A stretch of 43,701 bases of DNA, from the NCBI GenBank assembly GCA_945829235.1, contig CALZUA010000026.1, positions 1 through 43,701 on the forward strand, in the 5' to 3' direction. Of this stretch, positions 2,316 to 11,119 are shown one piece after another. A program made the position numbers and the translations under genes. The notes under the pieces were generated by a model. It worked only from the letters and a program-made list of their open reading frames with translations. It was not told the origin of the DNA and made no database searches. The stretch is from an uncultured Clostridia bacterium (GTDB taxonomy: Bacteria; Bacillota; Clostridia; Oscillospirales; Ruminococcaceae). Every line of letters begins with the position of its first letter. Position 1 is the stretch's first letter.

Positions 2316-3824
2316 ATGAGTGAGAAGAACAATGCCAATATCGGCTTTGAAAAACAGATATGGGACGCTGCTTGCGTTCTTTGGGGGCACATTCCTGCCG
2401 CCGAATACAGAAAGGTAATCGTAGGTCTTATCTTCCTGCGATACATTTCAAGTGCTTTCGAGCGCAAGTATAATCAGCTTGTGGCAGACGGTGACGGTTT
2501 TGAGGACGACAAGGACGCTTACCTTATGGATAATATCTTCTATGTTCCCGAACAGGCTCGTTGGAACACAATCTCCGCTGCGGCTCACACTCCTGAAATC
2601 GGCTCTGTTATTGATGACGCTATGAGAGCTATTGAAGCCGAGAACAAATCGCTCAAAAATGTTCTTCCGAAGAATTACGCCAATCCCGATTTGGACAAGC
2701 GAGTTTTAGGCGATGTCGTAGATATTTTTACCAACAATATGGATATGGACGATACTGACGATAGCAAGGATTTGCTTGGTCGTACTTATGAATACTGTAT
2801 CGCTCAATTCGCCGCACACGAAGGCGTAAAGGGCGGCGAGTTCTATACTCCGTCAAGCATAGTAAAAACTATCGTGTCCATACTAAAGCCCTTTGAGAAT
2901 TGCCGAGTTTATGACCCCTGTTGCGGCTCCGGCGGTATGTTTGTGCAGTCGGTTAAGTTTGTAAAGGCGCACAGCGGAAATCGTGGCGATGTTTCAATAT
3001 ACGGGCAGGAGTCCAACGCAGACACTTGGAAAATGGCTAAAATGAATATGGCTATCCGTGGCATTGACGCCGATTTTGGTCCTTATCACGCTGACACATT
3101 CTTTAATGATTTACACAAATCTCTGAAAGCAGATTTTATAATGGCTAATCCTCCGTTTAACCTTTCAAATTGGGGACAGGACAAGCTGCTTGACGATATT
3201 CGTTGGAAATATGGCACACCTCCCGCAGGAAACGCCAACTATGCGTGGATACAGCATATGATACACCACCTTGCCCCGAACGGAAAAATCGGCTTGGTGC
3301 TTGCTAATGGTGCGCTCTCCACACAATCAAGCGGCGAGGGCGATATTCGCAAACGCATTATCGAGGACGATTTGGTTGAGGGCATAGTCGCTATGCCTAC
3401 GCAGCTGTTTTACAGCGTTACTATACCTGTTACTCTTTGGTTTATTTCAAAGAATAAGCAGCAGAAAGGCAAAACTCTGTTCATAGACGCTCGTAATATG
3501 GGCTATATGGTTGACCGCAAGCACAGGGATTTAACCGACGAGGAAATTCAGAAACTTGCCGATACCTTTGAACAGTTCCAAAACGGCACTCTTGAAGATG
3601 TCAAGGGTTTCTGCGCTGCAGTCACAACAGAAGATATTGCAAAGCAGGATTACATATTAACACCCGGTCGTTATGTTGGAATTGAGGAGCAAGAGGACGA
3701 CGGAGAGCCTTTTGAGGAGAAAATGGCAAGGCTTACATCTGAACTGTCGGATATGTTTGCAAAATCTCACGAATTGGAAGAAGAAATCCGTAGGAAGCTG
3801 GGGGCGATTGGATATGAGGTGTAA
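2316..3824 (+). CDS. hsdM: Type I restriction-modification DNA methyltransferase subunit M
   Basis: At 502 residues the protein has the usual HsdM length. An N-terminal helical HsdM_N domain is followed by the N6-adenine methyltransferase fold: SAM-binding motif I DPCCGSGG at residues 200-207 and catalytic motif IV NPPFN at 278-282. It transfers methyl groups from S-adenosylmethionine to adenine at the site chosen by HsdS, as an M2S complex, or R2M2S2 with HsdR. The start is fixed by GGAGGA about 8 bases upstream of the ATG. Its end overlaps the truncated hsdS by 11 bases. Both catalytic motifs are intact, so the methyltransferase should be active with any full-length HsdS. Confidence 0.97.
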   Translation: MSEKNNANIGFEKQIWDAACVLWGHIPAAEYRKVIVGLIFLRYISSAFERKYNQLVADGDGFEDDKDAYLMDNIFYVPEQARWNTISAAAHTPEIGSVIDDAMRAIEAENKSLKNVLPKNYANPDLDKRVLGDVVDIFTNNMDMDDTDDSKDLLGRTYEYCIAQFAAHEGVKGGEFYTPSSIVKTIVSILKPFENCRVYDPCCGSGGMFVQSVKFVKAHSGNRGDVSIYGQESNADTWKMAKMNMAIRGIDADFGPYHADTFFNDLHKSLKADFIMANPPFNLSNWGQDKLLDDIRWKYGTPPAGNANYAWIQHMIHHLAPNGKIGLVLANGALSTQSSGEGDIRKRIIEDDLVEGIVAMPTQLFYSVTIPVTLWFISKNKQQKGKTLFIDARNMGYMVDRKHRDLTDEEIQKLADTFEQFQNGTLEDVKGFCAAVTTEDIAKQDYILTPGRYVGIEEQEDDGEPFEEKMARLTSELSDMFAKSHELEEEIRRKLGAIGYEV

Positions 3825-4341
3825 GCTGTCAGAGGTTATGGAGTTAATTGGTGGAGGCACACCTAAAACAACAATATCCGAATATTGGAATGGTAATATC
3901 CCGTGGCTCTCCGTAAAAGATTTTAACAACGATTTCCGCTTTGTATACAGCACAGAGAAAACAATAACTGAACTTGGATTACAGAATTCTTCTACAAAAC
4001 TATTGCAAAAAGGCGATGTAATTATTTCTGCAAGAGGAACAGTTGGAGAAATTGCGACAATTCCATATCCAATGGCATTCAATCAATCGTGCTATGGAAT
4101 TAGAGCAAAAAAAGATATTGTAACAAGCGATTTCTTGTACTACTTGATTAAGCATAATGTTTCGGTCTTGAAGAAAAACACGCACGGTTCTGTTTTTGAT
4201 ACAATTACTCGCGATACATTTGACAATATAGATGTGAATATTCCTTCGATTGAACAACAAGAAAGAATAACGGGGATTTTAAGTCCTATTGATGAAAAAA
4301 TCGAGCTAAATATCAGAATAAACTGTAATTTAGCGGCTTAA
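3814..4341 (+). CDS. hsdS: Truncated HsdS (TRD1a half, OFF orientation)
   Basis: The ATG at 3814 overlaps the end of hsdM. The product of 175 residues holds one target recognition domain (N-terminal motif IGGGTP, then IPWLSVKDF and ISARGTVGEIA) and the start of the central conserved helix (ERITGILSPIDEKI), then stops two codons after the shared sequence AACTGTAATTTAG. A normal HsdS has two TRDs and about 390 residues. The missing second half lies directly downstream in reverse orientation (4338-4981). Inverting that segment at the shared core would give an in-frame protein of 387 residues. This is therefore a phase-variable half-gene in its OFF state, not random decay. Confidence 0.9.
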   Translation: MRCKLSEVMELIGGGTPKTTISEYWNGNIPWLSVKDFNNDFRFVYSTEKTITELGLQNSSTKLLQKGDVIISARGTVGEIATIPYPMAFNQSCYGIRAKKDIVTSDFLYYLIKHNVSVLKKNTHGSVFDTITRDTFDNIDVNIPSIEQQERITGILSPIDEKIELNIRINCNLAA

Positions 4342-4378
4342 ATCTCCACCTCTGATACGTCTATTTCGCCGTTCATCA
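4320..4378. repeat. Inversion site 1 (59-bp arm)
   Basis: Perfect 59-bp inverted copy of 7241-7299. It contains the shared core AAACTGTAATTTAG in plus orientation. The identity includes the last codons of the hsdS gene, on the opposite strand. Confidence 0.9.
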
Positions 4379-4981
4379 GCTTGGGGAGTAGAGTGTCACG
4401 GATTGCTGTTAGTGCTTTGTTCTCTGTTCTATTTGTGTTTATTGTTTCAAGCATCTCCGAAACTATATTGTTGAACCTATTCAGATACTCATTTTCAGGA
4501 ATACAGATGGGATACATCATTATCTGCTGCTTATCTCCTCGCGGCATTTTTGTTCCCTTTGCCCCAGAAACCATATAACTAAAGAATTTGTCAGCGTATA
4601 ATGTGCAATAAAGAAATACTGACCAATTATTTTTACGAGGAACAAAACACAGCACATCTGATGAACATCCGCAATCAGAATAGCAGTATAGGATTTTTTT
4701 GAAGTATGGTCGAATATTTGAGATAAGCACATTGCCCTTCCCGCAGGCTGTTGTCTGTTTGATAACGGGTAACGAAGAAGCCGGTAAAGCTCCTTGACGG
4801 TTTGGTTGCATATTTTCAGTAGAATAATATGTTTCTAACGACAGTTCGTCTATATTTACCTTGTCTTTAGAGTATTCGCATATATCTGCAAGAGTCCCCA
4901 TTTTCCAGCTTTCGGGTTTTATGCCACCAAACGGCTCAAAATCCACAAACCAAGACTTGTAAAGAGCCTGCGCTTGCTGCT
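4338..4981 (-). pseudogene. hsdS: Silent inverted HsdS half (TRD2b cassette)
   Basis: Read on the minus strand this encodes EQQAQALYKSWFVDFEPFGG, the typical link into the second target recognition domain of HsdS, then a TRD and the C-terminal helix ending in DVSEVEI. No ATG or ribosome site opens it; a GTG at 4946 is the only start-like codon. It appears to be a promoterless cassette that becomes coding only when joined to a 5' half. Its last 12 codons match those of the full-length hsdS at 6103-7281. The TRD differs from the second TRD of that gene, so moving it would change the recognised half-site. It overlaps the stop of the truncated hsdS by 4 bases tail to tail. Confidence 0.85.
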
Positions 4982-4995
4982 CTAAATTACAGTTT
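4967..4995. repeat. Inversion site 2 (29-bp arm)
   Basis: 29-bp perfect inverted copy of 6627-6655, with the core AAACTGTAATTTAG in minus orientation. Recombination with site 1 flips the 650-bp TRD2b cassette. Confidence 0.9.
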
Positions 4996-5013
4996 TCAAT
5001 ATAAAGTCCATTT

Positions 5014-5054
5014 CTCCTACGGGCGGTAGGAGTTAATACAAGGGATTGCCGCCC
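5014..5054 (+). promoter_or_regulatory. Mutually exclusive leader hairpins before the recombinase
   Basis: CTCCTAC (5014-5020) pairs with GTAGGAG (5026-5032). Alternatively GGGCGG (5021-5026) pairs with CCGCCC (5049-5054). Base 5026 is used by both and the first loop is the arm of the second, so only one can form. This may control expression of the recombinase. No experimental support is visible. Confidence 0.35.
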
Positions 5055-5090
5055 CTTTGTAGTCTATCTCTATTCTAAAGGAGAATGATT

Positions 5091-6089
5091 ATGAAGAACG
5101 AATTAATCGACGATATTATTCAAGGAATGCTTCCGTTCCTTGATAATGCTAAAATGAAACAGCTGTACAATGTAGTGCAGAAAGCCCTATCAAGCTACGA
5201 TGTTGCTAAAAGCGATAGCGAAAACGCTGTCTGTGATGTTGAGGTATCAAACCAAACCTTGCTATCCTCTTTTCTTTCGGCAAAGCGGATAGAGGGCTGT
5301 TCCGATAACACTCTGCGCTATTATCGAAAGACTATTGAAGCTATGATGTCAACCGTTGGTAAAAGCGTTTCTCATATTGTTACAGATGATTTGCGGCAAT
5401 ACCTGACCGACTATCAGAGTAAGAACAATTCAAGCAAAGTCACGATAGATAACATACGCCGCATATTGTCGAGCTTCTTCTCGTGGCTTGAGGACGAGGA
5501 TTGTATATTAAAAAGCCCTGTTCGCCGAATACACAAGGTAAAATCGGCTTCCATAATAAAGGAAACCTACACCGATGAAGCCCTTGAACAGATGCGTGAC
5601 AGCTGCGATAATCTACGTGATTTGGCGCTTATAGATATGCTTGCTTCAACGGGTATGCGTATCGGAGAGCTTGTGTTGCTCAACCGTAGCGATATAAACT
5701 TTGAGGAGCGAGAATGTGTTGTTTTCGGTAAGGGCAGTAAGGAGCGAATGGTATATTTTGACGCAAGGACGAAGATACATCTTCAGAACTACCTTGACAG
5801 CCGAACCGACAGCAACAAAGCCTTGTTTGTTACGCTAAAATCACCTTTCAACCGCATAAGTATCGGTGGCATAGAAACACGCTTGCGTGAAATGGGAAAA
5901 CAGCTGAACATTCAGAAAGTCCACCCGCACAAATTCCGCAGGACTATGGCAACAATGGCGATAGACAAAGGTATGCCGATAGAACAGCTGCAAAGGCTGC
6001 TGGGACATCAGAAAATTGATACAACTTTGCAATATGCAATGGTTAAGCAGAGCAACGTAAAAATTGCTCATAGGAAATATATAGGATAG
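5091..6089 (+). CDS. Tyrosine recombinase (putative hsdS invertase)
   Basis: Phage-integrase family, 332 residues: an N-terminal SAM-like core-binding domain (about 45-130) and a catalytic domain with R190 (TGMRIGE), a Lys in the KGSKER turn, H280 and R283 (HPHKFRR), H306 (LLGHQ) and nucleophile Y315. The catalytic set is complete. AAAGGAG at 5077-5083 is 7 bases from the ATG at 5091 and only 1 from the ATG at 5085, so 5091 is preferred. The gene sits between the inverted hsdS cassette and the full-length hsdS, flanked by all four copies of the shared core. Such placement is typical of invertases that shuffle hsdS genes. It is itself inside two of the possible inversion intervals. Confidence 0.9.
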   Translation: MKNELIDDIIQGMLPFLDNAKMKQLYNVVQKALSSYDVAKSDSENAVCDVEVSNQTLLSSFLSAKRIEGCSDNTLRYYRKTIEAMMSTVGKSVSHIVTDDLRQYLTDYQSKNNSSKVTIDNIRRILSSFFSWLEDEDCILKSPVRRIHKVKSASIIKETYTDEALEQMRDSCDNLRDLALIDMLASTGMRIGELVLLNRSDINFEERECVVFGKGSKERMVYFDARTKIHLQNYLDSRTDSNKALFVTLKSPFNRISIGGIETRLREMGKQLNIQKVHPHKFRRTMATMAIDKGMPIEQLQRLLGHQKIDTTLQYAMVKQSNVKIAHRKYIG

Positions 6090-6102
6090 CGAGGAATGTG
6101 TA

Positions 6103-7281
6103 ATGGGCAGTTGGATAGATTGCACTTTAGCTGATTTGGGTACTGTTGTTGGTGGTGCAACTCCATCGACAAAGCAAGAAGAAAACTATCTTAACGGTAC
6201 TATTCCGTGGATAACACCAAAGGATTTATCTACATTAAGCGGAAGATTTATATCCCGTGGCGAACGAAATATTACTCAACGTGGATTGGATAGCTGTTCG
6301 GCACAGCTTATGCCAAAGCATTCCGTGTTGTTTTCTTCGAGAGCACCGATAGGATATGTTGCTATCTCCAAATGTGAACTCTGCACTAATCAAGGGTTTA
6401 AAAGCATAGTGCCGAATAGTAGAACTGATTATATGTTCTTATACTATTTGCTTAAATATAATAAGAATGCTATTGAGAATATGGGAAGCGGAACTACATT
6501 TAAAGAGGTTTCGGGTAGCACAATGAAAGGCATTCGTGTTCGTGTTCCTGCTGATAAAGAAGAACAAACTCGTATAGCGGGTATTCTTTCAGCAATAGAT
6601 GATAAGATTGAGGAAAACGAGCGAATAAACTGTAATTTAGAGCAGCAAGCGCAGGAAATCTTCAATTCAGAATTCTTGCAGTTTGATACCGTTCCTGACG
6701 GGTGGAAAGAAAGCGATTTGTTAAAAATTGCCGATTATCTTAACGGGTTAGCTATGCAAAAATACCGTCCAAAAGATGATGAAACAGGAATTCCTGTATT
6801 AAAAATAAAAGAACTGCGTCAAGGCGCTTGCGATGCAAGCAGTGAATTATGCTCTCCGAACATAAAAGCCGAATATATTGTTAATAATGGCGATGTCATT
6901 TTTTCTTGGTCAGGCAGCCTGCTTGTTGATTTTTGGTGCGGTGGGATATGTGGACTAAACCAACATCTTTTCAAGGTAACTTCAACCAAATACGAGAAAT
7001 GGTTTTATTACGCTTGGACTAAATATCATTTGCAAAGGTTTATCGCTATTGCAGCTGATATGGCTACTACTATGGGACATATCAAGAGAGAAGAATTAGC
7101 GAAAGCAAATGTGCTAATTCCATCCGGCGAGGACTATCATCGTATAGGAGAGTGTCTTTCACCAATATACGACCTAATCATAAGTAATAGAGTAGAAAAC
7201 CAAAGGCTTGCAACTCTCCGCGATACGCTCTTGTCCAAGTTGATGAACGGCGAAATAGACGTATCAGAGGTGGAGATTTAA
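6103..7281 (+). CDS. hsdS: Type I restriction-modification specificity subunit S (full length, ON)
   Basis: 392 residues with two target recognition domains. TRD1b (about 1-150) carries GGATPST and IPWITPKDL. The central conserved helices follow (AGILSAIDDKIEENERINCNLEQQAQEIF, given here as the region 160-190), then TRD2a (about 195-350), then the C-terminal conserved helix ending DVSEVEI. Each TRD reads half of a bipartite target. The gene starts 13 bases after the recombinase stop, behind a modest GAGGAA ribosome site. The recombination core lies at 6627-6640, exactly between the two TRDs. With TRD1a and TRD2b at the neighbouring loci, four specificities can be built, all in frame (386-393 residues). 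Confidence 0.95.
   Translation: MGSWIDCTLADLGTVVGGATPSTKQEENYLNGTIPWITPKDLSTLSGRFISRGERNITQRGLDSCSAQLMPKHSVLFSSRAPIGYVAISKCELCTNQGFKSIVPNSRTDYMFLYYLLKYNKNAIENMGSGTTFKEVSGSTMKGIRVRVPADKEEQTRIAGILSAIDDKIEENERINCNLEQQAQEIFNSEFLQFDTVPDGWKESDLLKIADYLNGLAMQKYRPKDDETGIPVLKIKELRQGACDASSELCSPNIKAEYIVNNGDVIFSWSGSLLVDFWCGGICGLNQHLFKVTSTKYEKWFYYAWTKYHLQRFIAIAADMATTMGHIKREELAKANVLIPSGEDYHRIGECLSPIYDLIISNRVENQRLATLRDTLLSKLMNGEIDVSEVEI
6627..6655. repeat. Inversion site 3 (29-bp arm, between the TRDs)
   Basis: Inverted partner of site 2, with the core AAACTGTAATTTAG in plus orientation, in the linker between the two TRDs of the intact hsdS. It is a direct repeat of site 1 over the core and the preceding GAAT. 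Confidence 0.9.
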
Positions 7282-7299
7282 GCCGCTAAATTACAGTTT
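7241..7299. repeat. Inversion site 4 (59-bp arm, after hsdS)
   Basis: Perfect inverted partner of site 1, covering the last hsdS codons and 18 bases beyond the stop. The core is in minus orientation. Flipping between sites 3 and 4 would truncate this hsdS exactly as the first one is truncated now. Confidence 0.9.
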
Positions 7300-7321
7300 C
7301 ATTTTGGAAAGGAGAAATGAT

Positions 7322-8065
7322 ATGTCAAAAATTAGCATTGATATTGAATACATAAAAACTAGTCTTAAGAACATTGGATATGAGATTAGTGATTGTATAG
7401 AAAGAGAAAACAATGGCATAAATTGGCAGTTAAAATTTAGTAACAGCGGAGCAATTGTCACTATATATGACTCCAACAAAACTAAAAATACAGTTGTAAA
7501 TGGCAAGGTTGATAGTGATGAAAAGTCCTCTTTGAAATGCATTGTTGATTCTTTAAAATCAAAAGAACTGGCTATTGACTCTTTGAATGCAGAAATTATT
7601 AATCTGATTAGAAGCAGAAAAGAAGATTACTATTATGATTTCAAGCAAAAACCGCACGATAATAGCGAAGATTTGTTACATGACATCTTATGCCTGTCCA
7701 ACAATTTGGAAAATCGTGATGCTTATTTGGTGCTTGGTGTTTCTGATGATTATACTGTTGTAGGCGTCGATAGCGACTGGAAATCAAATAATATTTTTGA
7801 TTTTATTAAAACGCAACATTTTGCTGGAGACCACGTTCCGGAAATTGAAGTCAAAGACATGTATTACAAATATATAAGAATTGTCGTAATAATATGCAGG
7901 AGTTCAAAAAATGTTCCATTCTATTTAACTGAAAGGTATAAAGGAATTAACGAAAATCAAATATATACTCGTTTAGGCGATACAAACACGCCCAAAAATA
8001 GAAGTGCTAATTACAGCGAAATCGAAAAATTATGGCGATTCCATTTTGATAGAGAAAACGAATAA
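7322..8065 (+). CDS. AlbA_2 (Schlafen-like) domain protein in the hsd operon
   Basis: 247 residues. The second half (about 105-235) fits the AlbA_2/Schlafen fold: an acidic E-x-x-x-x-DFK segment (KEDYYYDFKQKP), a hydrophobic turn AYLVLGVSDD followed by VVGVDSD, and a late segment with IYTRLGDTNTP, matching the usual Y-x-R-x-G-x-x-x-x-x-A motif. The N-terminal 95 residues are not recognised. The start at 7322 is set by GGAAAGGAG 7 bases upstream; a TTG at 7304 overlaps that site. Family members bind nucleic acid and some cleave RNA. It lies between hsdS and hsdR, 16 bases from the latter, so it is probably co-transcribed. Its role in this system is unknown. Confidence 0.7.
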   Translation: MSKISIDIEYIKTSLKNIGYEISDCIERENNGINWQLKFSNSGAIVTIYDSNKTKNTVVNGKVDSDEKSSLKCIVDSLKSKELAIDSLNAEIINLIRSRKEDYYYDFKQKPHDNSEDLLHDILCLSNNLENRDAYLVLGVSDDYTVVGVDSDWKSNNIFDFIKTQHFAGDHVPEIEVKDMYYKYIRIVVIICRSSKNVPFYLTERYKGINENQIYTRLGDTNTPKNRSANYSEIEKLWRFHFDRENE

Positions 8066-8080
8066 AAAGGAGAAGTGATT

Positions 8081-8647
8081 ATGTCAGAATATGTCGAAGC
8101 CAACTATGAAAACGCTATAATAGACCTATTTCAAAGTAATTTGGGATACGACTATGCCTATGGTCCGAACATAGAACGCAATTTCAACTCCCCGCTATAC
8201 GATGAAATCCTTGAAGAAAGTCTGCGCCGCCTTAACCCGAAAGCGCCTTATGACGCTATTCAAGACGCATTGCATAAGCTCCGCAACTTTGAGAACGGCG
8301 AGCTGGTGCAGAAAAATGCCGTGTTTATGGACTACTTGCAGAATGGTGTACCCGTCCGTTATACAGAAAAGGGAGAGGAACGCTCTGCGCTCGTCTATCT
8401 TGTGGATTATGAGAACATCGACAAAAACTCCTTTATTATCGCTAATCAATGGACTGTCGTTGAGAATGCAGAAAAGCGCCCCGATGTTATTATTTTTCTG
8501 AACGGTCTGCCTGTGGGCGTGTTTGAGCTGAAATCCCCCTCCCGTGAAGAAACCGACGCTTCAGAAGCATACTTACAGCTCCGCAACTATATGTACGATA
8601 TTCCCTCGCTGTTTATCTATAACGCTATCCTCGTTATGTCTGACTAA
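8081..8647 (+). pseudogene. hsdR: HsdR, N-terminal (nuclease) fragment, ended by in-frame stop
   Basis: The first 188 residues of a type I restriction subunit R. The PD-(D/E)XK nuclease centre is complete: D135, then E149-L-K151 (VGVFELKSP), followed by a QxxxY-like motif (LQLRNY). Translation stops at TAA 8645-8647 after NAILVMSD. In intact HsdR proteins this position reads SDG followed by a run leading into the G-E/D-R-F-M segment, which here continues in the same frame after the stop. The ATG at 8081 has AAAAGGAG 8 bases upstream; GTG at 8075 is too close to that site. On its own the fragment lacks the motor. A sequencing error cannot be excluded. Confidence 0.85.
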
Positions 8648-8692
8648 CTCACATCAAAGGCAGGCACAATCACTTCGGGCGAAGATAGATTT

Positions 8693-11119
8693 ATGGAGTG
8701 GAAAACAACAGACGGCGACTACGAGAATACGCGGTATGCACAATTCGATACTTTCTTTGAGGGCATTTTCCAAAAAGAGCGTTTCCTTGATATACTGAAA
8801 AACTTTATCTGCTTTTCCGATGATGGAACAAAGGAAATCAAGATACTTGCAGGCTATCATCAGTATTTTGCGGTTAAAAAAGCGATTGAGTCCACCAAAA
8901 AGGCAACCGTAACAGACGGCAAGGGCGGCGTGTTCTGGCATACGCAAGGAAGCGGAAAATCGCTGTCAATGGTGTTCTACGCTCATTTGTTGCAATCGGC
9001 ACTCAATAGCCCTACAATCGTTGTAATGACCGACAGGAACGACCTTGATGACCAACTTTACGGGCAGTTTGCAAAGTGTAAGAATTTCCTGCGGCAAGAC
9101 CCTGTTCACGCTGAAAGCCGTGAGCATTTGAAATCTCTGCTTGCGGGAAGAAAAGCCAACGGAATAATCTTTACCACTATGCAAAAATTTGAGGAAGCGG
9201 ACGAAGCCCTTTCCGAACGCAGAAACATTGTCGTTATGGCTGATGAAGCCCACCGAGGACAGTACGGACTTGCCGAAAGCGTTGAAGCCGAAACAGGTAA
9301 ACTGAAATACGGCACAGCTCGTATAATAAGAAACAATCTCCCGAACGCAACATTCATAGGGTTTACGGGTACTCCTATCTCGTCAAAGGACAGAAGCACA
9401 AGAGAGGTATTCGGCGATTACATAGATATTTATGATATGACACAGGCTGTTGAGGACGGAGCAACTCGCCCTGTTTACTACGAAAGCCGTGTTGTCAAAC
9501 TCAAACTTGATGAAGCTACTATCAAGCTGATTGACAAGGAATACGATATAATGGCGGCAAATGCCGAAGCAAGCGTAATTGAGCAAAGCAAGCACGAATT
9601 GAGCCGTATGGAAGCAATTCTCGGCAATGACGCTACAATAAACACTCTTGTTACCGATATTCTCGACCACTACGAAAACAACAGAGAAAACCTGCTGACA
9701 GGAAAAGCGATGATAGTTGCGTATTCAAGAGAAATCGCAATGAAAATCTATCGCAGAATACTTGAAATCCACCCTGATTGGACGGAAAAGGTTGCTGTTG
9801 TAATGACATCAAGCAACAAAGACCCCGAAGAATGGCGTGATGTTATCGGCAACAAGGCTCACAAGAACGAGCTTGCGAAAACATTCAAGGATAACAATAG
9901 CCCGCTGAAAATTGCAATCGTAGTTGATATGTGGCTTACGGGCTTTGACGTTCCCTCGCTGGCTACTATGTATGTCTATAAGCCTATGAGCGGATATAAT
10001 CTTATGCAGGCTATCGCAAGAGTAAACCGTGTGTTCCGTGACAAGGAAGGCGGTCTTGTTGTTGACTATGTGGGCATAGCTTCGGCTTTGAAACAGGCTA
10101 TGAACGATTATACCGTTCGTGACAGGAAAAACTACGGTGATACCGATGTCGGAAAGGTGGCTTATCCGAAATTCCTTGAAAAGCTTTCACGCTGCCAAGA
10201 CCTGTTCCACGGATACGATTATCATAATTTCAATACAGGAAGCGACCTTGACCGTGCAAAGACTATCAGCGGTGCAGTAAACTTTATTATTGCTCCCGCA
10301 AGAGAAGCGGATAAAGAGGAGTTCCTGAAAGAAGCTCTTATGCTTCATCAGTCGCTTTCTCTCTGCTCCTCGTTGGTTGACGAGCAACTCCGTATAGAAG
10401 CAGCTTTCTTTGAAGCTGTCCGTGTGCTTGTTATGCGACTTTCAAATCAAGGCGGCGACAAAAAGATTTCCCTGCCCGAAATGAACGCTCGCATAAACGA
10501 ATTGCTCAAACACAGTATCAAGAGCGACGGTGTTATCAATCTCTTTTCAGATGTGAAAGAAGAATTCTCTCTGTTCGACCCTAAATTCCTTGAAGATGTC
10601 GCAAAGATGAAAGAGAAAAACCTCGCCGTAGAGTTGCTGAAGAAACTGATTGCCGAACAGATACATATTTACCGCCGCACAAATGTGGTAAAATCGGAGA
10701 AATTCTCCGAGATTATACAGCGAACGATGAATGCTTATCTCAACGGAATGCTCACAAACGAGCAGGTTATCGAAGAACTTATGAAAATGGCGAAGGATAT
10801 TTCCAACGCCGCCAAAGAGGGAGAAGAACTCGGTCTTACCGCCGATGAGCTGGCTTTCTATGACGCACTTACCAAACCGCAGGCAGTAAAGGACTTTTAC
10901 GAAAACTCCGAACTTATAGCGATTTCAAAGGAACTTACCGAAACGCTGCGGAAGAATAAGACGATTGATTGGCAGAAAAAGGACTCGGCAAGAGCAAGAA
11001 TGCGTATGCTCATTAAGAAGCTGCTGAAAAGCCACAGATACCCGCCAGAGGGTATGGAGGACGCAGTTCAGACGGTTATGACACAGTGCGAATTGTGGAC
11101 GGATAATGTGTTCGACTGA
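8693..11119 (+). pseudogene. hsdR: HsdR, C-terminal (translocase) fragment
   Basis: Same frame as the nuclease fragment, with no stop between 8648 and the end. It carries the superfamily 2 helicase motor: Walker A GSGKS (residues 290-294 of the uninterrupted protein), DEAH (388-391), FTGTP, and motif [10 protein letters not shown], then the helical C-terminal domain that binds HsdM. Read through, the product would be 1,012 residues, normal for HsdR. The first ATG is at 8693 with no good ribosome site, so independent translation looks poor. The motor has no sign of other decay, so the lesion is recent, regulated, or an artefact. Confidence 0.85.

Follow-up and report, generated by a model that had tools for sequence, protein, structure and literature searches.

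Here, we describe a Type I restriction–modification locus in a 43,701-nt contig of an uncultured Clostridia bacterium of the Ruminococcaceae (assembly GCA_945829235.1, contig CALZUA010000026.1, positions 1 to 43,701; hereafter the window). The specificity gene hsdS of this locus is probably under an either/or switch, in which a tyrosine recombinase (R) rejoins two 5′ halves (A and C) with two 3′ cassettes (B and D), most likely via paired exchanges over four recombination sites (s1–s4). The elements are arranged in the order hsdM, A, s1, inverted B, s2, R, C, s3, D, s4, a SLFN/AlbA_2 gene, and hsdR (Table 1). The window contains exactly one complete hsdS, C–D (6103–7281; Pfam Methylase_S), and its recombinase points in the direction of hsdM.

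Recombination sites and in-frame joins

An earlier note on this DNA had reported four alternating cores, two inverted pairs, an intact recombinase flanked by hsdS halves (two 5′ and two 3′), and four in-frame joins, and all of these were recovered. The 14-bp core AAACTGTAATTTAG occurs in four identical copies in the order plus, minus, plus, minus, at exactly the positions claimed (Table 1). At two mismatches or fewer, the window has four matches against 0.45 expected, and none of 100 shuffles reached four; at one mismatch or fewer, no further copy was found in the 3.23-Mb genome. The inverted pairs of 59 bp (4320–4378 and 7241–7299) and 29 bp (4967–4995 and 6627–6655) were read from the sequence with the same coordinates, and they sit within longer imperfect inverted pairs of 114 and 60 nt. 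The halves and the intact recombinase were identified with Pfam and PADLOC.

The 3′ end of a cassette (E) is located at s1 and s4, and the 5′ start (S) at s2 and s3. Translation of the joins at the core gave the claimed lengths of 1164 (A–B), 1161 (A–D), 1182 (C–B), and 1179 nt (C–D), stop included, all open and in frame. When an E end stands behind a 5′ half in the window, the frame stops after N-x-N-L-A-A, and half A in its present form is a protein of 175 amino acids with the C-terminal NCNLAA. A stop after six codons is given by the E end in 143 of 164 cassettes (82 distinct loci).

Arrangement of the sites and halves in relatives

One genome per species was scanned, and 200 stretches encoding relatives of R were obtained, of which the best 80 (66–73% identical) were kept. 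To these were added 36 loci from additional genome regions and 12 of 17 plasmid and phage matches. The site script was applied to 134 sequences including the window (three were skipped: L007, L008, and L010, short loci with a minus-strand recombinase), and it looked for an 11-base core AAA-N6-TT paired on each side of R, with the orientation left free. Both site pairs were readable in 92 sequences, and plus–minus alternation on each side of R (+-|+-) was found in 92/92; with sites this nearly palindromic, the sign of s1 is a convention of the script, but the alternation itself is not. The sites generally have the form TAAA-N6-TTTA and face inward around each cassette. The spacer is of 11 kinds across the loci (CTGTAA in the window) and is uniform within each locus, as the search required. 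In the loci from the genome scans, this layout is widespread in Bacillota. Relatives without sites found by the script, mostly under about 66% identity, were excluded from the counts.

The state of each slot was defined by which cassette end faces the 5′ half, judged from the open frame read from the site; this procedure replaced an initial reading by C-terminal motif. States were readable in 89 of the 92 sequences, corresponding to 82 distinct loci after seven duplicate groups were collapsed to one each. L035, L047, and L108 (one slot unreadable), L078 (three sites), and sequences without two site pairs were not counted. Among the 82 distinct loci, 43 were C-joined, 36 were A-joined, three had neither half joined, and none had both joined. 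Exactly one hsdS is therefore joined in 79/82 (p = 1.9e-20 versus independent slots), and in 75/78 when R is forward and hsdM is visible. R and hsdM have the same direction in 78 of the 79 distinct loci with visible hsdM, with L017 as the exception. A later set of 79 loci gave 14 readable ones and, after removal of L155 as a copy of L016, 13. R was forward in 11 of these, and 10 of the 11 were exclusive (p = 0.006); the exceptions were L184 (neither joined) and L180 and L194 (R turned). Pooling the R-forward loci gives 85/89 exclusive, 0 both joined, and four neither joined. On a quick tree of the recombinases, the joined-half label requires 25 changes versus a shuffled mean of 26.0 (82 of 200 shuffles had 25 or fewer). 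The label is thus scattered like a shuffled one, which indicates that it changes fast relative to the recombinase sequence.

In L046, L048, L070, L089, L099, and L120, which do not have two readable pairs and are not part of the orientation count, hsdM is on the strand opposite to R, and other gene orders were also seen in several loci without two readable site pairs. In L048, L070, and L089, hsdM is divergent from the recombinase on short contigs, and those of L048 and L070 terminate close to core-like sequences. This may be a different layout, or the assembly may have broken at mixed junctions. L041 and L092 show an apparent tandem duplication of the recombinase module and a cassette (two recombinases, six sites). 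The recombinases of L114, L115, L118, and L122 (about 60–65% identity) are flanked by two directly oriented AAATTGAAA copies and are perhaps a sister type with a different site arrangement. L137, from a plasmid of the archaeon Methanosphaera, has a 57% identical recombinase next to DUF2207 genes; the annotation of that stretch includes no hsd genes.

Exchange model

To enumerate the reachable arrangements, a site was taken as the point at which a cassette end meets one of four left flanks (A, R, C, or the downstream side). Free single exchanges without DNA loss lead to 16 arrangements, including forms with both hsdS joined, neither joined, or R turned. Paired exchanges over all four sites lead to exactly four arrangements, A–B, A–D, C–B, and C–D, all with one joined hsdS and an unturned R, and nearly all relatives fall within these four states. 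According to the earlier note, a dedicated recombinase switches hsdS among as many as four specificities, and the upstream copy is currently off; this part is supported, the upstream copy being truncated. Its working steps, single inversions, are not supported by the enumeration and the family counts. Inversion between 4333 and 4981 alone would join both hsdS, a state of 0/89 pooled R-forward loci; inversion between 6640 and 7285 alone would leave neither joined (4/89); and inversion between 4333 and 7285 alone would turn the recombinase, which is turned, with sites, in L017, L078, L180, and L194. Because of these results, the plain single-inversion reading was dropped. Deletion by s1 × s3 or s2 × s4, which the note had also raised, is possible in principle according to the enumeration; recombinase-less loci were not searched for.

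Here, we propose a mechanism based on the enumeration and the family counts. The two fixed 5′ halves, A behind hsdM and C behind the recombinase, would compete for the 3′ cassettes B and D. The recombinase would rejoin the halves at the sites, and the join would fall in HsdS between the two target-recognition domains. The exchanges are most likely paired, using all four sites; the physical pairing is what we infer from the pattern of arrangements. Each of the pairings 12|34, 13|24, and 14|23 would move the locus among A–B, A–D, C–B, and C–D, and each state would have one complete hsdS, an unturned recombinase, and zero DNA lost. This genome would have been caught in C–D, with A ending as a half-protein.

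Closely related loci that differ by rearrangement bear on these pairings. The Lactococcus plasmids pJM2A and pUCCL627F are 99.75–100% identical in the flanks and 98.5% in the R–C block (where the alignment runs into cassette edges). Both cassettes are 100% identical but swapped and inverted, with R unturned, as in 14|23. In L031 and L156 (flanks 88–90%, R–leader block 98.8%), one cassette, 99.5% identical, occupies slot 1 in one locus and slot 3 in the other in the same direction, as in 13|24. In L054 and L059 (flanks 97–99.9%), slot 1 is turned in place at 99.8%, and slot 3 contains a different cassette in the opposite direction. The plasmid pJM1A carries one cassette twice. L012 and L013 differ in the slot 3 cassette only, and therefore cassettes are also replaced from outside. 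Near-identity over most of the length with one different 3′ cassette was observed in L012/L013, L065/L066, and L085/L088, pointing to cassette exchange between bacteria. L159 and L184 had appeared from frame lengths to differ by a single cassette flip; at the DNA level, a search for matches of 100 bp or more at 80% came up empty, and the two were not counted as a pair.

Excision and reinsertion of a recombinase-bearing circle via the direct sites s1/s3 and s2/s4, as in the tvr locus of Streptococcus pneumoniae, would likewise preserve the recombinase direction and the one-joined rule. In the enumeration its net effect equals pairing 13|24, and L031/L156 resemble it for one cassette. However, excision alone never uses cassette B, since from C–D it reaches only A–D, yet both cassettes are open; moreover, the swapped and inverted plasmid pair requires 14|23. 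With cassette B out of its reach, this route was rejected as sufficient by itself, and we consider it very unlikely as the explanation.

Free recombination of one pair at a time, followed by selection, is a rather unlikely explanation. Cells with two joined hsdS, none, or a turned recombinase would be removed, and the pattern would reflect fitness, for example, if hsdM to hsdR were a single operon working in one direction only. The cores are alike within a locus (a requirement of the site search), so any pair could react, and the neither-joined and turned-recombinase forms do occur among relatives. In a consensus scan, no promoter-like site was listed on the plus strand of the leader, which would fit a single operon. 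On the other hand, both-joined loci number zero, though that state has no obvious cost and is present in tvr as 2+2. Disallowed forms are also absent from the culture long reads of SsuCC20p, the related system of Streptococcus suis (PMC10790761).

Points against the paired-exchange switch

Several observations weigh against a paired four-site switch. The states record cassette orientation and not whole genes. Neither half is joined in L053, L093, L130, and L184; the recombinase is backward, with sites, in L017, L078, L180, and L194; and in five S. agalactiae strains, xerD is inverted and the sites are lost (PMC10790761). Individual readings are affected by a stop 23 codons ahead of the site in the C half of L040, unread bases ahead of s1 (A half) in L049, and a slot 3 that is open from either end in L126. 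Two identical cassettes are found within L135 and within L093. The clean double swap is limited to pJM2A/pUCCL627F; the other pairs have a replaced or duplicated cassette or are less close loci. Many relatives at about 55–66% identity have no such sites by the script. Selection on the arrangements could yield the paired-exchange pattern too. As to this strain, switching is what we infer, and the source is known in one arrangement only.

The condition of this copy also counts on that side. Directly before AAA, s1 and s3 carry a T, s2 has an A, and s4 has a G; at the s2 and s4 positions, T predominates in relatives (92% and 82%, respectively). AAACTGTAATTTA is present at all four sites, and s2 and s4 therefore have TAAA-N6-TTTA without its usual first T. 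The window hsdR is interrupted by an in-frame TAA at 8645–8647. Such a stop was seen in two of 75 sequences (the window, which is included in the 75, and L040), and 73/75 are open over the matched stretch. From the missing T and the interrupted hsdR, this copy may be decaying: together they suggest that restriction is lost or reduced, and switching may be weaker in this copy. A sequencing error may be the source of the hsdR stop. A frozen relic, with the arrangement fixed in this lineage, would be consistent with the interrupted hsdR, the absence of the usual T at s2 and s4, and the single arrangement at hand. We regard it as unlikely, because the recombinase, its leader, and each of the hsdS frames formed by the four joins remain intact. 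With hsdR split and the modification and specificity genes intact, the system may methylate without restricting, and switching here may change methylation without restriction.

Leader RNA of the recombinase

The region separating s2 from R shows conservation across the close recombinase clade and is a candidate structured leader RNA, predicted as an H-type pseudoknot and a hairpin holding the Shine–Dalgarno sequence of the recombinase. A set of 64 leaders was reduced to 36 by removing five divergent ones and near copies. In these 36, the two crossing helices are paired in 87% and 97% of cells. Changes on both sides were counted in 82 cells, compared with 25.5 in shuffled and 3–16 in slid controls, and the covariation score is 0.474 versus 0.261, figures in which related rows may beat shuffles even without structure. 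Further pair types (19 versus 19.8 in shuffles) were not above shuffles. The consensus fold shows the second pseudoknot helix only, because crossing helices cannot be written in it; both were therefore counted directly. The final hairpin, GTCGTTCTC...GAGAAYGAC, contains the Shine–Dalgarno sequence; a pattern search located its arms in 32 of the 36 rows, and L056, L058, L069, L107, and L112 were judged on visual inspection to carry compensating changes. The fold of the window leader has a z score of −2.51, and three of 200 shuffles were at least as good. Most alignment rows also share a GGRAC-like stretch within the long loop.

A covariance model matched the window at 4997–5090 (3.0e-12; the window row is part of the training set). 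Of 54 loci outside the training set, 20 also have a match immediately upstream of R at E ≤ 5e-8, some of them near copies of training rows and some having s2 several hundred bases away from R. No match was obtained in the distant loci given among L097–L137 except L124, nor in L046, L048, L070, and L089, the recombinases of which are 68–71% identical. The only strong match in the organism's own genome is this locus. Among 245 genomes of the class, strong matches occurred in six including this one, each beside a recombinase relative, and two weak matches were found besides. The Rfam matches in positions 4300–7400 of the window were two weak ones outside the leader (E 0.55 and 4.1), and no description of the leader was found in a search of the open-access literature. 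The hairpin on the ribosome-binding site probably keeps the output of the recombinase low, and limiting the recombinase is probably the role of the leader.

Genes and features of the locus

The coordinates are summarized in Table 1. The inverted 3′ half (4338–4946) gave no match in the Pfam search at E 0.001, and it matched PADLOC Type I specificity profiles. For R, the ATG at 5091 is the better-spaced start candidate as read from the sequence. The domain of R is whole, and its catalytic residues, which we take to be R, K, H, R, H, and Y, fall in invariant alignment columns. A promoter-like TTGATT-17-TATAAT is present upstream of hsdM at 2233–2261 (a consensus match only; 19 such matches were found versus 16.9 in shuffles). 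A near-match search against plasmids with window positions 2316–11119 returned no match. Farther upstream of hsdM, at 743–1406, a 221-bp unit is present in three direct copies that are 85–90% alike.

Table 1. Coordinates of the locus in the window
Feature	Position	Strand	Basis
hsdM, Type I methyltransferase subunit	2316..3824	+	Pfam N6_Mtase 3.3e-111 and HsdM_N
5′ hsdS half A, truncated at present, overlapping the hsdM end	3814..4341	+	Methylase_S 3.5e-32; translation
Site s1 (A side), at the 3′ end of cassette B in the present arrangement	4320..4333	+	core search, joins
3′ hsdS cassette B, inverted	4334..4981 (open reading frame (ORF) 4338–4946)	-	PADLOC Specificity_I 6.9e-37 (best match); in-frame join to A and C
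Site s2 (recombinase side), at the 5′ end of cassette B	4982..4995	-	core search, joins
Structured leader RNA candidate: H-type pseudoknot and Shine–Dalgarno hairpin	4996..5090	+	model match, pair counts, fold z
Tyrosine recombinase R (XerA/XerD-like)	5085..6089	+	Phage_integrase 5.5e-31; NF040815 238.2 bits (cut-off 220); 4a8e 1.3e-24
5′ hsdS half C	6103..6640	+	ORF list, Pfam
Site s3, junction of C with the 5′ end of cassette D	6627..6640	+	core search, joins
3′ hsdS cassette D, reading orientation	6641..7285	+	Methylase_S, two stretches within the complete gene
Site s4 (downstream side), at the 3′ end of cassette D	7286..7299	-	core search, joins
SLFN/AlbA_2 gene, between hsdS and hsdR	7304..8065	+	SLFN_AlbA_2 1.4e-12; PADLOC PDC-S50
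hsdR, interrupted by an in-frame stop	8075..11119	+	HSDR_N, then SWI2/SNF2 and C-terminal domains

Comparison with known systems

SsuCC20p of S. suis is the closest described system that we found; the published systems are compared here as far as the parts of the cited accounts drawn on describe them. SsuCC20p has four alleles, three observed in culture and the fourth at a low level in larvae. One complete hsdS is present in every S. suis assembly that has the locus in full, and xerD is never turned there. Switching depends on xerD, and the mechanism was left open, with coordinated double recombination suggested. The 14-bp sites are TAAATGATGATTTA/TAAATCATCATTTA, and the authors considered the system restricted to streptococci (PMC10790761). 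The window shares with it the order hsdM, half, cassette, xerD, half, cassette (followed in the window by hsdR), four alleles (predicted for the window), one complete hsdS at once, an unturned recombinase (in S. suis), and the use of the hsdS behind the recombinase. The sites around both 3′ halves of the window resemble the 14-bp TAAA-N6-TTTA form of SsuCC20p, with s2 and s4 being without the first T. The spacer is TCATCA in SsuCC20p and CTGTAA here, and the present locus belongs to Clostridia and has an interrupted hsdR. A leader RNA of the recombinase was found here and is unmentioned in those parts of the SsuCC20p account (PMC10790761). Plasmid loci of Lactococcus and Enterococcus carry the exact published SsuCC20p site, and their recombinases are 60.8–61.7% identical to R.

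The tvr (SpnIV) locus of S. pneumoniae similarly has a recombinase amid hsdS parts, a shared short core, and an RNA structure limiting the recombinase. It differs in that its repeats all run in one direction, a circle is excised, two complete hsdS are allowed (2+2), and the toxin–antitoxin homologues tvrAT are present (PMC6265443). In the window, the sites instead run +, −, +, −, and between s2 and C no plus-strand ORF of at least 60 amino acids was found except R (shorter ORFs were not examined). The RNA brake of tvr is a transcription attenuator (PMC6265443), whereas here the candidate is a hairpin on the ribosome-binding site. In the SpnIII (ivr, cod) locus of S. pneumoniae, a tyrosine recombinase also inverts hsdS parts, but the inverted repeats form several dissimilar sets (15, 85, and 333 bp), and activity is limited to the hsdM-adjacent hsdS (quoted in PMC10790761). 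A REBASE survey of duplicated hsdS loci with inverted repeats of at least 20 bp listed 991 loci. The present locus is of this general kind, and the parts of the survey drawn on contain no such site, leader, or one-complete rule (PMC7394358). The rule of one complete hsdS was thus already known for one system, SsuCC20p; a search of the open-access literature returned neither its spread over Bacillota nor the closed-set argument. The data sets of the REBASE survey, outside the scope of that search, may include loci of this family.

The family data turn the SsuCC20p observation into a rule across many species. A still broader reading, which we hold tentatively and at somewhat less than even confidence, is that of a Bacillota-wide family of hsdS switches with a four-site, two-at-once rule, a closed set of four states that always leaves one specificity, and a pseudoknot leader that holds the recombinase output down. 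Paired exchange predicts four of the 16 arrangements and none besides, which is testable. If true, mutual exclusion would be built into this DNA switch, an unusual property, and the leader would offer a handle on the frequency of epigenetic switching in gut Clostridia.

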